From a virus, in IMG/VR virus record IMGVR_UViG_3300009175_000083, positions 1 to 21,719 of that record: a stretch of 21,719 nucleotides of DNA; one strand, 5' to 3'. Position 1 is the first letter of the stretch; every line of letters starts with the position of its first letter. The notes under the pieces are model-generated. The model ran no database searches. It had not been told where the DNA came from and worked only from the letters and a program-made list of their open reading frames with translations. This document shows positions 5,735 through 19,827 of this stretch, piece by piece. The position numbers were made by a program, and so were the translations under genes.

Positions 5735-5773
5735 ATAATAAAAAATGGTCCCAAGTTATGGTAACTGGGACCA
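5735..5773 (-). terminator. Rho-independent terminator / attenuator in front of the terminase genes
   Basis: A long stem is formed by 5746-5758 and 5762-5773: TGGTCCCA pairs with TGGGACCA, continued by GTTA/TAAC past one bulged base, with a 3-nt loop. Reading the minus strand, six T residues follow immediately (5745 to 5740). The hairpin is downstream of the regulator gene that ends at 5920, and its T-tract ends 12 nt before the small-terminase ATG. There is no comparable T-run on the plus strand, so it acts on leftward transcription. Confidence 0.85.
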
Positions 5774-7654: not shown

Positions 7655-7996
7655 CTATGCTACCCTCTTCCACATTGCGCACTTAGCGCTAACAGCCCTG
7701 TCAACCATCTTCCGCATTGCCAATATCACAGTAAATCTATCGAATTGGGAATCGTCCGTTAATTCCAGTCTCGTTAAATCTGCATCGAAATTCGTCTCAG
7801 CATTCCGGTAGAAAATTGCATAGCGAGTTCGATTTTTAATCAAGATCGCATCTACGTAAAGCAGATTGCCCTCAGTATCACAATACACGGGAGGCACTGG
7901 CCTGGGAGGTTCTACTGGCAAGCAATTAGCGCAGATCGATTTACCCGCGGATCCAATGCCAGTTATTTTCGTATTGCATATTTTACAAATTGGCAT
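7655..7996 (-). CDS. Zinc-ribbon hypothetical protein (113 aa)
   Basis: The ATG at 7996 was chosen over an upstream TTG because it puts the Cys motif at the very N-terminus and gives a normal stop/start overlap with the gene before. The N-terminal MPICKICNTKITGIGSAGK, then SICANCLP, is a Cys4 zinc ribbon (two CxxC pairs). The remainder (about 40-113) contains a YVDAILIKNRTRYAIFYR beta segment and an Arg/Lys-rich helix ending WKRVA. The zinc finger suggests nucleic-acid or protein binding. I do not recognise a family. It lies between the 218-aa unknown gene and the 32-aa membrane peptide, in the operon downstream of the primase. Confidence 0.68.
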   Translation of the reverse strand: MPICKICNTKITGIGSAGKSICANCLPVEPPRPVPPVYCDTEGNLLYVDAILIKNRTRYAIFYRNAETNFDADLTRLELTDDSQFDRFTVILAMRKMVDRAVSAKCAMWKRVA

Positions 7997-8639
7997 TGTA
8001 ATTACCAATCTTTCCAAGCCGACCTTTGACAATGTAAAGCCGGCTCAAAAGTTGATTAATTGGAGTTATATCCCGGGACACAGCATCATCTTCCGGAAGG
8101 AAATATTGTTTATACTCCTCTTCAAAAGCGGCTTTATCTTCAAACTCAGTGACTCCAGACTGGTAATATAGCATCCACCCGGATGCTATTCTCATTAATC
8201 GTGTCCCAACACAACGAAATCCATGCAAAGGTCCTTCAGCCTCACTTTTAGTGACCACAGCTAGATTCAGAAGAGAGAACCATATTTCTGAGTCCTCTGT
8301 TAGATCAGGCCGTGGATCCCCGATTATTCGATAGAAAGGTTTGTTTGGGTCTGCGAACGCAATATCAGACTTATTGTTTTTTTGAATTTCTAATTCAAAA
8401 TTAAGCTCTTTGAGAATAGCATTAGCATTCTTGCCTATCTTCGAATGTAAATCAGGTGTAAGCTGCTCTCTGGGCTCCACTATGAACATTGATTTATTTT
8501 TACCTGGTGCCAGGCATACATGGAATCCTTTGCGGCGTAATGCCGGGACATAGACACAGATAAAGCTATCGTCCTTTGCACTGTCTTTCCCATTGCCTTT
8601 AATTTCGCTACTTGGTTTATTTTTTGTAGCCGTAGACAT
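7983..8639 (-). CDS. Hypothetical protein downstream of primase-helicase (218 aa)
   Basis: It starts at ATG 8639 with AGGAG 6 nt upstream, 9 nt after the primase gene ends. The first 25 residues are a disordered Lys/Ser/Asn-rich tail. The body is mixed alpha/beta with segments SFICVYVPALRRKGFHVCLA (about 25-44), KPFYRIIGDPRPDL and DSEIWFSLLNLAVVTKSEAE. No nucleotide-binding, nuclease or membrane motif is visible. Position suggests a partner of the replication protein, but no family is recognised. The 3' end overlaps the next gene by 14 nt. Confidence 0.75.
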   Translation of the reverse strand: MSTATKNKPSSEIKGNGKDSAKDDSFICVYVPALRRKGFHVCLAPGKNKSMFIVEPREQLTPDLHSKIGKNANAILKELNFELEIQKNNKSDIAFADPNKPFYRIIGDPRPDLTEDSEIWFSLLNLAVVTKSEAEGPLHGFRCVGTRLMRIASGWMLYYQSGVTEFEDKAAFEEEYKQYFLPEDDAVSRDITPINQLLSRLYIVKGRLGKIGNYNANL

Positions 8640-8648
8640 ATCAATCTC

Positions 8649-11372
8649 CTATTGTTCGTTTGTATCAAAATCGTCATAATTAGTATTTTGAGAAACACCG
8701 TAAATAACGCTATTTTCAGTTTCTTCAACCGTTATTTCTAAGGCTTCAAATTTAGATAATTCGTCTGTTTTGTCCGGAATGACGCAAATGACGGAATTAG
8801 GGGTTTTTGCTGAAACTATTTGAGAAGTGTCCTTCATGGAGGACTTTACGTCAGAATCTTTAATTCTGTCATTTGCGTCATTAACACCCTCTTTACCATC
8901 TAAATCTAATGTTTTAGTGACGCAAATGGCGCAATTTTCGCTATTTTCCAAATCTTCTTCAGATTCGATACTTCTGAAAAGGTTTCCTGTTTCTTGTAAA
9001 ATTGCGTCACTTGCGGCTTTTTTTGTCGTTATACCTCTGAGAAGCCTTATTCCGTCCGTCCCTCTAGACCTGTCAATTCCGTCTCTTTGTGCCAGATTTT
9101 TGGCAAACCATTGCACTGCTTTGAATGCCGGATGTTGCTTGTTTGTGTCACACCACGTTAAATATTCTTGCCATAATGAGCTTATTTCACATATCGCCTG
9201 CCAATGCAAAACGCACTCCATATCTAAGAACTCACCTATTGGATCCTGGCTGTCGAAAAGGGCTTCTATTTCGCGTTTTAAGACCTTGGGCATACGCAAA
9301 CCCTCTGATTTCCATTCAAGGCAGCCCTTGACCGCCCAGGCCAGTATTCCTGATGCTTCAGCAATCAACTTATCGTAGATTTTGTCATCCTTGACCGGTG
9401 TTTTGCCCTCATCCGGATCATAGAATCTTTGGCGAAAAGGGATTAGCTTGATACGGCGCTTCATTGCGAATGATTGGCTCCGTATTTTAGGAACATCGTT
9501 GGTAGCAAACACTATCTTGAATGTAGGAACGTAAGTGAAAAAGCTTTTGTAAAGATGCCGGCAGGTGATAGGGTCTCTACCAGCCACGCGTTTCAATAGC
9601 GGCTCATTGAAAGCTTGATTTTCTTCTGCTTCAGACGCAGTCACCAGCCTGGCCCCTGATAAGCTGGCCAGATCAGCAGTATTGTTGTCTGTTCTTTCTA
9701 CGAAAGTAGTAACAGGGGTATCTCTGATGTAATCGCCAAAAATATAACGAAGAACATCCATGAACTTTGATTTTCCACACTGGCCACGTCCATAAAGAAT
9801 GAACACTGATTCCTCCCGGGTATCACCTGTGAGGCAATAGCCAACCATTCGATGAACAAAATCTATGATCTCTTCATCTTCCTGGAAGACTTCCTTGAGG
9901 AACTGAATCCACCTGGGACACTCAGCTTCCGGATCATAAATAACAGGCGCTATTTTGCTGATCAAATCACGCTGCTGATGTGGCTTGAGTTTACCTGTTC
10001 GTAGGTCCACTGTGCCGTTCACACAGTTTAGAGCCCAATGATCGGCGTCCAGTGCCACTGTTTTCACTGGGACTCCCGGCAGATGACGCCCCAAGGCAAT
10101 CATTGCTTCAAGTCCTCTACGCGATTCTGAACGCTTTACATGACTAAACAAAGCTTTGCTTTTATCAGGATCCTGGATAGACGGAAGAGTATCGTACATC
10201 GATCTGATAGACATACACGCCAGGCGCTCTATTTCGCCAGTATCATCGCGTTTCCATTGCATTCCGGACCAATGTAACCATTGCCCTGAGTCGACATCAT
10301 AGCGCAGATTTTCGCCGTGCTGATCTATAAGGAATTCTGCATTACCCAGGTCGGTCAAATATTTGATGTCTGACAAAAATTGCCCAGTATTTAATTTGGA
10401 TCCCACTGAGTTTGAGTTATATATTTGCCGGGACTTGTATGTATGTCCACAGTCTTGAATTGCTCGCTGAAGTGTTTGCTCTCGATAATCATCCCGTTCC
10501 CATTTCTCGCGCATAAGCCCTGATTGACGGAACAACCGGTCCATTTGAGGCTGATTGCAGTCGGTCCAGAACGCCAGGAAATTACACAACGCTTGATCAG
10601 CTGCCGATGCATCATTATTATTGTTCGACAGGTCCCCGTTCCAAAGTTGGGTGAACTGGGGGCCATTCTTGGCTGCTTTGGCTTTGTCAATTACTTCATC
10701 ATCCGTAAGCGGTTTATCAGCTACATTCAATCTTTTATTTGTGGATAATTTGCGAGGCTTCTCTGGATCATCCGATCCAGTCTCAGCATTACCAAACATA
10801 TCAAAGTAAAGTGCTGATATTTCATTAGCTGCCGGCTGAATGATACCCGAGTTCCCGGGCACCAGGCAGCCCGTCATAACAAGGAATCGACGGTCCTCGT
10901 ATATTTCGATGTTTGGATGTTCGGACACTCTACAGCGGCGTCCTGGCTTCTTTCCTTTGATGATTATATGGACACCGCTGCCAGACCTCGAGTACTCCGC
11001 ATAGGAATCAAATTGATTGACTATCAGACGTGCCCAGGACTCCAACTCTTTGATGCCAGTTTCAGGATTCTCAATTACACAATGATCAAGATCAATCCCG
11101 ACATAAGGATCTGATGCTGAAACTATAAAGCCTATACCCTCATATCGTTTGGCCACTGATGCACATTGCTCAAAAGTGCCCCAGGTAGCCGGATCGTCCG
11201 ATTTAGCACGGGACCCGCCATTCCAGTTAATTGGTATTTTTGTAGGCTTATCCTCGCGAATCTCGATTTTATAACAAACCCATTGAGGACGTTCTCGCAA
11301 CTCCAATGGTATTTTTTCGTATTCGAGTTCAATAGCATTTTTAGTTGATGACATTGGAGTTGTCGGACTCAT
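8649..11372 (-). CDS. PrimPol / D5-type primase-helicase (907 aa)
   Basis: This is the replication protein. The N-terminal domain is an archaeo-eukaryotic primase-polymerase: hDhD motif GIDLDH (residues 92-97), SGSGVHI (130-136, sxH motif), then IEIYEDRRFLVMTG (155-168). A D5/P4-type SF3 helicase follows: Walker A GRGQCGKS (528-535), acidic Walker B-like segment LVTASEAEEN (576-585), FATNDVPKI (622-630) and the Arg-rich AMKRRIKLIPF (636-646). It would prime and unwind at the phage origin. The ATG at 11372 overlaps the helicase-gene stop (CAATGA) and has GGAGG 9 nt upstream. The last 110 residues are hydrophilic and low in structure. Their coding DNA carries repeated TGACGCAAATGAC elements in both orientations, a possible origin. 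Confidence 0.93.
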   Translation of the reverse strand: MSPTTPMSSTKNAIELEYEKIPLELRERPQWVCYKIEIREDKPTKIPINWNGGSRAKSDDPATWGTFEQCASVAKRYEGIGFIVSASDPYVGIDLDHCVIENPETGIKELESWARLIVNQFDSYAEYSRSGSGVHIIIKGKKPGRRCRVSEHPNIEIYEDRRFLVMTGCLVPGNSGIIQPAANEISALYFDMFGNAETGSDDPEKPRKLSTNKRLNVADKPLTDDEVIDKAKAAKNGPQFTQLWNGDLSNNNNDASAADQALCNFLAFWTDCNQPQMDRLFRQSGLMREKWERDDYREQTLQRAIQDCGHTYKSRQIYNSNSVGSKLNTGQFLSDIKYLTDLGNAEFLIDQHGENLRYDVDSGQWLHWSGMQWKRDDTGEIERLACMSIRSMYDTLPSIQDPDKSKALFSHVKRSESRRGLEAMIALGRHLPGVPVKTVALDADHWALNCVNGTVDLRTGKLKPHQQRDLISKIAPVIYDPEAECPRWIQFLKEVFQEDEEIIDFVHRMVGYCLTGDTREESVFILYGRGQCGKSKFMDVLRYIFGDYIRDTPVTTFVERTDNNTADLASLSGARLVTASEAEENQAFNEPLLKRVAGRDPITCRHLYKSFFTYVPTFKIVFATNDVPKIRSQSFAMKRRIKLIPFRQRFYDPDEGKTPVKDDKIYDKLIAEASGILAWAVKGCLEWKSEGLRMPKVLKREIEALFDSQDPIGEFLDMECVLHWQAICEISSLWQEYLTWCDTNKQHPAFKAVQWFAKNLAQRDGIDRSRGTDGIRLLRGITTKKAASDAILQETGNLFRSIESEEDLENSENCAICVTKTLDLDGKEGVNDANDRIKDSDVKSSMKDTSQIVSAKTPNSVICVIPDKTDELSKFEALEITVEETENSVIYGVSQNTNYDDFDTNEQ
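8780..9009. repeat. Iteron-like repeats of TGACGCAAATGAC inside the primase gene (candidate origin)
   Basis: TGACGCAAATGAC occurs at 8780-8792, as an exact inverted copy at 8868-8880, and with one change (TGACGCAAATGGC) at 8918-8930. A shorter inverted TTGCGTCA lies at 9002-9009. The copies are read in opposite orientations through the same reading frame and encode different peptides (SVICVI against NDAND), so the conservation is at DNA level. Repeats in an initiator gene are a common origin layout (lambda O is the classic case). Origin function is inferred. Confidence 0.5.
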
Positions 11373-15542: not shown

Positions 15543-15672
15543 TATTGAATACCTGAACTTTCTTGTTTGTCTTTTGATCTTTAGATTTTTGGTCTCTGGT
15601 TATGTCTTTTGATTTTGAGTTACTCCTCCCGGGGGAGGAGTTTTGATCTTTGAGTCTTTTTCGACTTATTGG
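15543..15672. repeat. A/T-rich repeat region between the Gam-like and Sak4-like genes
   Basis: No gene is seen in these 130 bases. GTCTTTTGAT occurs at 15569-15578 and 15604-15613, with TTTTGATCTTTGAG at 15641. Together they give the stretch a repeated T-rich pattern on the plus strand (A-rich in the mRNA). Confidence 0.45.
15622..15641. terminator. Perfect G/C hairpin upstream of the Sak4-like gene
   Basis: ACTCCTCCC (15622-15630) and GGGAGGAGT (15633-15641) are a perfect 9-bp inverted repeat with a 2-nt centre. On the plus strand TTTT follows, so it could stop antisense transcription. On the minus strand no T-run follows. There the stem sequesters a GGAGGAG ribosome-site sequence that has no start codon close behind it. 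Confidence 0.45.
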
Positions 15673-17309: not shown

Positions 17310-17668
17310 TTCGCACCCGCTGTCTGCGACTGGATGATCTGACTCAAACTCTGCTTGTCAGTGACCCGCTGGTAAATCTGGGATCCAACCGCCAGAAGCA
17401 GGAACCCAAGGATGAATATAATAATCCATCGCTCGATCTTGCCGGAGTCCCATAGGTTGGCTAACCAGAACGTTGCACTGGCTTTCCAATCCCTCCTGCG
17501 ATAACTACCCTTGTTAACGCCCCTGGGGCGTCTGCGTCTGCCAGTTCCGACAAACAGTATATTGATATCGTTTGCGATTGAACGATGCTGCTCAATGGGG
17601 CAACTCGGTGAATACATGCCCCTGGGGCAAGTGCAGCGCAATGTCGGTGTGGTTTTAGTCGGTATCAT
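17306..17668 (-). CDS. Single-pass membrane protein with Cys-rich N-terminus (120 aa)
   Basis: ATG 17668 was chosen over an upstream in-frame start because it gives the usual short (14 nt) overlap with the preceding gene. The N-terminal part contains RCTCPRGMYSPSCPIEQHRS (about 9-28) with three Cys and a His, a possible metal site. A basic segment GRRRRPRGVNKGSYRRR follows (about 42-58). One membrane helix, WIIIFILGFLLLAVGSQIY, lies near 80-98, with a polar C-terminal tail. The basic segment before the helix suggests a cytoplasmic N-terminus. Superinfection exclusion or a membrane anchor is possible; no family is recognised. Confidence 0.66.
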   Translation of the reverse strand: MIPTKTTPTLRCTCPRGMYSPSCPIEQHRSIANDINILFVGTGRRRRPRGVNKGSYRRRDWKASATFWLANLWDSGKIERWIIIFILGFLLLAVGSQIYQRVTDKQSLSQIIQSQTAGAK

Positions 17669-18062
17669 TTTGCACCGCCAAATATGTTTCAACCGGGATT
17701 GCATCAGGATCAACATAACCGCCCTCAACATAAGGCAGAATGTTTTCGTCAACCCAATAACATGGGTGTGACTGACCTAGCATCTGGTAGCAATCAGAAC
17801 AAGGCATAGGCTGTGGCTTATTCTTGCTTTCCTTGTAGTATTTGCACTTGTAGCACTGATGCTTGTAGTCGTCACAGGATTTCGGATGCCCTAAGTGGCA
17901 ATCAAAAACAACTTCCGGGTATGCCTTATCAAGCACATTGATAGCATTTACAGCCTTATTAGCCAACCATCCCAGGTCGTAACTGTTAGACTCGACGACA
18001 TTTTTGTTGATTATTTGCCGGACTAAACTTAATGCAAGTTCATGCTTCTCAGAATTATTCAC
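17655..18062 (-). CDS. Cys-rich hypothetical protein (135 aa)
   Basis: It starts at GTG 18062, overlapping the upstream stop (GTGA), with a strong GGAGG 7-8 nt before it. The N-terminal 50 residues are helical. The centre is dense in Cys/His: FDCHLGHPKSCDDYKHQCYK, then CKYYK and CSDCYQMLGQSHPCYW (about 53-102), which suggests one or two zinc sites. The C-terminus is acidic. It may bind nucleic acid or protein, but no family is recognised. It belongs to the run of small early genes at 16.5-19.1 kb. Confidence 0.7.
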   Translation of the reverse strand: MNNSEKHELALSLVRQIINKNVVESNSYDLGWLANKAVNAINVLDKAYPEVVFDCHLGHPKSCDDYKHQCYKCKYYKESKNKPQPMPCSDCYQMLGQSHPCYWVDENILPYVEGGYVDPDAIPVETYLAVQNDTD

Positions 18063-18319
18063 TTCAATCCCTCCAATGTAGCTAATTCAGCCTGTAAGCT
18101 GGCCATCTGCTCCCGCAATTCCTGTCTCCGCAGTTCAGCAGGATCCACAACGGCTATAGGTTCGTCTTTGTTAACGGCCAGTAGAATAGATCTCGTTTTC
18201 CGCACTGCTGCAGTCAGCTCAGGATTTAACAATCCGGCAAAACCTCTGACTGCCGGCTGCAAGTCTGCAGAGTCGGACATTACGAAATTTGTATTCATTT
18301 GTAGCCGTTTCCGTTTCAT
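18059..18319 (-). CDS. Small protein with C-terminal coiled coil (86 aa)
   Basis: The start at ATG 18319 has GGAG 7 nt upstream and overlaps the upstream stop (TGATG). A basic start (MKRKRLQ) leads to a mixed region LNPELTAAVRKTRSILLAVN. The C-terminal helix AELRRQELREQMASLQAELA onward (about 61-83) is a clear coiled-coil heptad pattern. It may be an oligomeric early regulator or adaptor; no family is recognised. Confidence 0.62.
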   Translation of the reverse strand: MKRKRLQMNTNFVMSDSADLQPAVRGFAGLLNPELTAAVRKTRSILLAVNKDEPIAVVDPAELRRQELREQMASLQAELATLEGLK

Positions 18320-19119: not shown

Positions 19120-19800
19120 CTAACTCGAAGCCTCGGCCGGTTCGTTTGCTTCTGTAGTCTCAACTGGAGCTTCAACCAATCCGATTTCTACCAAATCTTT
19201 CTCACCCACTACATTACAGCGCCAAAGGCGTATTTTTCCATCGGTGCCAACTGGAATACAGGCGATATCGGCTGCAGTGAACTCAACAACCAATATGCGA
19301 TTAGTTATTTGCCATTCGCGCATACACCAGTCAAGTGTGGCTACGTTTATACCAGCCCCACATTGTTCACGATCGTTAGTATCTGCTTCCGTTTCACAGA
19401 CTTCCTCACCCATAATGTATTTCAGTCGTTTATGGTGTATTGGGGATTGGAGATCATGCGTAACCAGCTTGTAAAGCCTAATCGGTCCAGGTTGATCGAG
19501 AAGCATCATCAAAGGAATGGATTTATATTTACTCACCCCGTTGGCCCTGGACAGGTCGGCCCCATACAGGTTGGCCCCATACAGGTCGGCCCCATACAGG
19601 TTGGCCCCATACAGGTTGGCCCCAGACAGGTTGGCCCCATACAGGTTGGCCCTGGACAGGTCGGCCCCAGACAGGTTGGCCTTTTTATCCACAACAGCCG
19701 CTTTCAGGTCTGCGTATTCGCCTGCAATGATTATTTCGCCTGTAAATCGGTGTTTGATTTCGATGTGCTGCAGTTTTGGTTCGTTGTTCTCAATTGTCAT
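19120..19800 (-). CDS. Pentapeptide-repeat protein with DUF5758-like C-terminal domain (226 aa)
   Basis: ATG 19800 is preferred (AGGAG 11 nt upstream); a GTG three codons earlier is only 2 nt from the same ribosome site. Residues about 40-90 are nine consecutive A(N/D)LxG/R pentapeptides ([15 protein letters not shown]), predicted to form a right-handed beta-helix turn. The C-terminal part ([53 protein letters not shown]) is the domain often found behind phage pentapeptide repeats. Known pentapeptide proteins can mimic DNA, but the tract here is short, so a structural or recognition role is as likely. It is the second gene of the early leftward operon. Confidence 0.8.
19543..19677 (-). repeat. 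Nine tandem 15-bp DNA repeats coding for the pentapeptides
   Basis: Nine 15-bp units run from 19543 to 19677, all variants of GGCCCCATACAGGTT with changes confined to a few positions (CCATA/CCAGA/CTGGA and a final T/C). The near-identity at DNA level, including synonymous sites, points to recent duplication or gene conversion. Copy-number change would stay in frame. Confidence 0.85.
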
Positions 19801-19827
19801 TTCAATCACTTCTCCTATCTAGCGGCG

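Follow-up and report, generated by a model that had tools for sequence, protein, structure and literature searches.

A terminator-type hairpin kept in place before the terS gene of a phage, a possible gate for late-gene expression

In several described systems, RNA polymerase passes a terminator that heads a late or lysis operon, as reported for lambda Q, AlpA and GafZ (PMC6266700, PMC7969949, PMC11150451). In lambda, the regulator gene is followed by a terminator upstream of the late genes (PR'-tR'; PMC6266700, PMC4825925). AlpA from Pseudomonas aeruginosa, a presumed activator, proved to be an antiterminator, and intrinsic terminators are found immediately upstream of its first target genes (PMC7969949). 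The Caulobacter gene transfer agent has a dedicated factor, GafZ, which bypasses a terminator near the start of the structural cluster (PMC11150451). IsrK of Gifsy-1 is described as a terminated leader that functions as a small RNA, alongside a protein resembling Q (PMC4825925). The Gram-positive phage regulators Ltr, RinA and ArpU are encoded upstream of packaging genes, with repeats before the late promoter, and are described as activators that bind repeats (PMC13123087). That article never uses the word "terminator" in its main text. Literature searches for RinA with antitermination and terS, and for Term-seq with late operon, found nothing, and related searches returned nothing that we recognised as describing a layout of regulator, promoter, terminator and late genes.

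The window analyzed here is a stretch of 21,719 nt from a viral record (IMGVR_UViG_3300009175_000083). Its features around the terminase genes are listed in Table 1. As in lambda, a terminator lies between the regulator gene and the first late gene, and the packaging and head genes are found behind it. The window differs from lambda in that no Q homologue was found (its putative regulator has no PHROG, Pfam or NCBIfam match) and that no Q-binding site or late promoter is recognisable. The likeness to AlpA is one of layout, and AlpA does not serve a phage late operon. The terminator bypassed by GafZ differs in that it lies behind the first gene and is built of 150-bp repeats (PMC11150451). The proteins of the Ltr/RinA/ArpU type differ in being described as activators, and the regulator of the window matches none of their profiles.

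Table 1. Features around the hairpin in the window
Feature	Start	End	Strand	Remarks
terL	3884	5464	-	PHROG terminase large subunit
terS	5340	5723	-	127 aa, HTH; ATG without a visible Shine-Dalgarno sequence
Block B	5734	5743	-	TTTTATTATG; identical in all three copies; overlaps T tract; includes TATTAT
Candidate promoter of a rival explanation, TTACCA-18-TATTAT	5735	5764	-	9/12 consensus; spans hairpin and block B
T6 tract	5740	5745	-	directly 3' of stem
Terminator hairpin	5746	5773	-	12 pairs, one bulged base, 3-nt loop; from fold, scan and shuffles
Block A	5778	5791	-	CTTCAATCCTCCTT; 14/14 positions shared with the copy before terS in the relative
A-rich imperfect direct repeats	5860	5919	-	30-bp units 19/30 alike, 11-bp repeat inside
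Putative late regulator	5920	6396	-	158 aa from ATG with GGGAGGG; weak HTH resemblance

The initial annotation had described a 12-bp stem with a 3-nt loop, followed by six T residues. This hairpin is confirmed, with one bulge in the stem as an additional detail. The distance between the T tract and the terS ATG had been given as 12 nt and has to be corrected to 16 nt (5739-5724). On the minus strand, block A is followed by the hairpin, the T6 tract, ATTATG and the start of terS. The GC-rich stem runs directly into the T-rich tract of the transcribed strand, and this tract is present on the terS-sense strand only. On its own, the hairpin folds to -15.0 kcal/mol; when its surroundings are included (66 nt in all), the fold reaches -16.1 kcal/mol (z -2.3), a value matched in 5/200 shuffles. 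A scan with strict criteria (7 or more pairs, no more than one unpaired stem base, a loop of 3-9, a T-rich tail) identified three terminator-like sites in the window. The hairpin is the strongest of these and the sole one on the minus (coding) strand; an equally strong site was obtained in one of 40 dinucleotide-shuffled windows. When the 34-nt spacer between blocks A and B was shuffled alone, an equal hairpin arose in 3/3000 cases (dinucleotide shuffles). The hairpin is not listed by a simpler consensus terminator scan of the window, probably because of the bulge, and a looser scan was too permissive to be informative (49 matches in the window, 29-50 in 15 shuffles). Rfam has no match in the window at the gathering score. 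We consider the hairpin to be an intrinsic terminator with high confidence, and it looks to be under selection. Elsewhere in the window, a perfect 8-bp inverted repeat (15622-15641) lies between two minus-strand genes and holds an SD-like sequence.

The protein attributed to terS matches only HTH models among profiles, and its role is deduced from the neighbouring TerL, the portal gene and the conserved gene order. The upstream gene had been called a sigma-region-4-like regulator, a label that is weak. An ORF program starts it at GTG 6438 (172 aa). The gene has no match in Pfam, PHROG or NCBIfam at E 0.001, and relaxing the Pfam search to E 10 still gave no match. A single-sequence AlphaFold model is poor (pLDDT 53.5) and weakly resembles the HTHs of GerE, FixJ and sigma-4 (best E 0.06). 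Just behind this gene are the A-rich repeats; the best self-repeat of the 146-nt gap is reached by 2 of 500 shuffles. The window also codes for a pentapeptide-repeat-like protein (19120-19809) with a repetitive core (GANLYGADL and variants).

Direct DNA relatives of the window were not found in the phage collection. A TerL search led to two contigs, G001 (42 kb) and G002, which have identical sequence around the element and are thus counted as one phage. Compared to the window, TerL of G001 is 81% identical and TerS is 55% identical, and the gene upstream of the element is a different one. Before terS of G001, block A and block B (10/10) are present at an equal distance to an ATGTGC start. The spacer is exactly 34 nt long in both phages, with an identity of only 8/34, and each spacer folds to a hairpin directly adjoining the T tract (-15.0 in the window, -14.4 in G001, the latter equalled in 23/3000 dinucleotide shuffles). 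G001 has a third copy of the element, the hairpin of which starts 85 nt behind a sigma-4-like gene. It consists of the core TCCTCCTTCACCTC, a new stem (-13.2; matched by 4/3000 shuffles) and then CTTTTTATTATGGCGAAATATTATGTGC; the block A core TCCTCCTT is common to all three copies. The three stems were paired by hand from the base rather than with a covariance model because they differ in length. All eight compared pairs are kept, seven of them with changes on both sides. The stem is thus kept by compensatory change across three copies in two phages. The conservation of structure without sequence, together with G-U pairs, the bulge and the one-strand T tract, favours a terminator-like RNA hairpin over a palindrome to which a protein binds.

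The two copies in G001 (27738-29265; 7738-9265 in the extract L024) flank an insert of about 1.45 kb with two genes (158 and 208 aa) and its own promoter-like TTTACA-17-TAATAT. This insert looks like a moron that is bounded by terminator elements. Without it, G001 would have the order of the window: regulator, element, terS. The regulator gene of G001 matches Sigma70_r4_2 at E 6.4e-5, below the Pfam cut-off. The protein has no PHROG match, and its structure model is too poor for use (pLDDT 39.3). Homology between the regulators of the window and of G001 was not found by sequence comparison.

Additional copies were looked for with pattern and profile scans. A first pattern scan of viral contigs returned two stretches, a second one 39 and a third one 30. 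In the second scan, the only hairpins of -6 or lower beyond the two known contigs were in L060 (-11.7) and L066 (-14.0), neither of them before a TerS. When 33 pattern matches were examined, hairpins beyond the known contigs were restricted to L068 (-8.2), L082 (-15.2) and L089 (-7.5), the latter from a genome scan of one phylum. In that phylum, the pattern was met in 1/400 genomes and the TerS profile matched in 3/400. Single queries with TerS and the regulator found no relatives among 8 and 51 pattern stretches, respectively. In two further pattern matches, L062 and L064, AATCCTCCTT and AAGGAGGATT form an inverted repeat, which would hide the ribosome-binding site of a gene starting at TTTATTATG.

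The viral contig L082 shows the order regulator gene (PHROG_36 and PHROG_248), TATCCTCCTTTC, strong hairpin, TTTTATTATGG. It is one good match among many and thus only suggestive. Its regulator and three relatives were used as successive tblastn queries, which led to named Gram-positive phages and to some unannotated phage records; duplicate records of one phage, such as RefSeq copies, were counted once. At 8 of the 12 loci related to the PHROG_36-type regulator, a terminator is found at most 300 nt from the regulator stop. The window, G001 and L082 are excluded from this count because the relatives came from L082, which was itself picked for showing the layout. When they are included, the count is 11/15 loci, compared to 8 terminators in 64,407 nt elsewhere in those 15. 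Among annotated gaps of at least 80 nt, a terminator occurs in 5/8 regulator gaps versus 2/17 others (p 0.017); for gaps of at least 30 nt, the values are 5/9 versus 4/23 (p 0.045). The two Latilactobacillus phages are near relatives. For three unannotated loci (L105-L107), the tblastn frame served to define the gene ends. The terminator of L107 begins immediately at the stop codon, where it may simply close the gene. The four loci without a terminator are from Butyrivibrio phage Arawn, Bacillus phage BCJA1c, Faecalibacterium phage Brigit and Brevibacillus phage Emery. Rather than behind the regulator, the terminator of BCJA1c is placed immediately before terS, and Emery has a long-loop hairpin outside the criteria of the scan.

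In the stretch from regulator to terminator, these phages have a promoter-like motif in common, TAnTATGnTAGTGTGA (score 139.6, compared to at most 111.6 in 12 shuffled sets), with instances such as TGTTACTATGATAGGGTGA in Listeria phage LWP01 and TGTTACTATGGTAGCGTGA in Enterococcus phage EFC-1. It is convincing in 7 of the 9 training loci. A held-out near relative, TMW 1.1365, fits it (0/400 shuffles), and the fit of G001 is marginal (6/400 shuffles). The motif was not found in the window, BCJA1c or Arawn; between 5919 and 5774 of the window it is not recognisable, as 184 of 400 shuffles score as well. The arrangement is compact in EFC-1, where regulator stop, motif, terminator and terS ATG are within 104 nt (L104 2899-3003). 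In the Latilactobacillus pair, motif and terminator are kept while the leader between them diverges, and one stem pair is swapped from A-T to G-C.

We also considered, and rejected, the possibility that a terminator upstream of terS goes with the TerL family as such. Among distant TerL/TerS contigs, a terminator precedes terS or terL in 1/12 (L012 was omitted because its match starts at base 3), and in the stretches scanned from named phages with a related TerL (Bordetella phage BPP-1 and others), one precedes terS in 0/7. The feature thus seems to follow the regulator type and not the terminase. One distant TerL relative, L015, has a strong terminator (2855-2886; -20.2) that ends 6 nt before the terL ATG.

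We consider the chances about even that the hairpin is a gate with regulated readthrough in the leader of the late (packaging) operon. As the hairpin is kept in place despite its changed letters, the late genes are probably turned on by polymerase passing the stop. Transcripts would begin before the hairpin, either within the regulator operon or from a promoter that directly follows the regulator gene, and would stop at 5745-5740 by default. Passage would need a termination-resistant polymerase, or initiation frequent enough for leak-through to suffice. The resistance would most likely be supplied by the product of the upstream regulator gene, in the manner of lambda Q at PR'-tR'. A switch for late genes had already been proposed in the initial annotation. 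Its terminator and the place before terS hold, and the gene order recurs in other phages, whereas the regulated switching is plausible rather than demonstrated. Several findings weigh against the gate: the window shows no recognisable promoter of the comparator type, its regulator has no family match and is unlike that of G001 in sequence, four of the 12 comparator loci are without the terminator, the enrichment weakens when gaps of 30 nt are admitted, a terminator before terS or terL is missing from 7/7 named phages with a related TerL and from 11/12 distant contigs, and both flanks are conserved beyond the needs of a bare terminator.

In a rival explanation, the hairpin would end the early operon and overlap a late promoter, with TATTAT of block B as the -10 element and a terS leader of about 5 nt. 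We regard this as unlikely. It had been argued that a normal promoter has too little space behind the hairpin. The 16-nt gap is indeed short, so that any promoter there overlaps the hairpin, but the argument is not airtight, since TTACCA-18-TATTAT does just that. A start from this site could give an almost leaderless terS mRNA, which would fit the lack of a visible Shine-Dalgarno sequence, and -10-like sequences follow the terminator in the two Latilactobacillus phages. The identity of block B across three copies goes further than the T tract, of which it makes up a part, would require. However, matches of the TTACCA-18-TATTAT type are about as frequent in shuffles as in the window, and G001 has no clear -35 partner. 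ATTATG stands before several G001 genes, so that block B may be a translation start, and it resembles a start region. Also, the third copy is not followed by terS.

Terminators are commonly found at operon ends. The hairpin might be such a passive, leaky terminator, which would lower the expression of terminase and downstream genes without regulated readthrough, and the terminator before terL in L015 may be taken as a parallel. This is quite unlikely in our view: the packaging and head genes of the window lie behind the terminator, and its position and flanks are conserved to the base.

Block A is anti-Shine-Dalgarno-like, being the complement of a Shine-Dalgarno region. Because it is complementary to ribosome-binding sites of these phages, a short RNA, the terminated leader with the stretch CAAUCCUCCUU, could block the translation of earlier genes. 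Both genomes have one or more gene starts that can pair with block A over about 14 nt. The start of gene 17655-18062 is the best of 25 window genes (-24.2 kcal/mol), and gene 26076 is the second of 49 in G001 for the terS copy (-25.4). Yet any CCUCC pairs with SD sequences, the extra pairing was judged by energy and rank alone, and the leader diverges between the two Latilactobacillus phages, so we consider a small RNA improbable. As a separate observation, the ribosome-binding site of gene 17655-18062, GGAGGGATTGAAGTG (18062-18076), is a near-perfect complement of block A, and antisense pairing is possible. A plus-strand gene with block A as its ribosome-binding site was rejected, as the downstream ORFs do not agree: the window has one of 5 codons, and the relative has none at its terS copy. 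A packaging site or operator in the DNA, bound by TerS or the regulator, could draw on the TerS HTH, which is conserved between both phages, and on the conserved blocks A and B, but it is highly improbable given that G-U pairs, bulge and one-sided T tract point to RNA and that the second copy, 1.45 kb away, would mean a second packaging site.

Returning to the gate, the hairpin of the window fits well, as a sequence feature, into a kind that is already known. It is set apart as a variation on this kind by its conserved flanks, by the additional copy in G001 and by the layout that recurs with sigma-4-like regulators, and its position is kept to the base while the stem is rewritten. It is tempting to speculate that sigma-4-like late regulators of a widespread phage class, including that of the window, are antiterminators acting on late genes, although we rate this generalization as rather doubtful. 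Such a regulator would be loaded at a TATGnTAG promoter immediately downstream of its own gene, from where it would carry the polymerase through a promoter-proximal intrinsic terminator. If true, what are now classed as activators would turn out to be Q-like antiterminators, a revision that AlpA has already undergone. Few phage groups have been studied closely as to how their late genes are switched on. Should the layout prove general among Gram-positive phages, a reporter on one plasmid would tell activation and antitermination apart for the whole regulator class, and packaging would have a marked point at which defence systems or satellites could block it.
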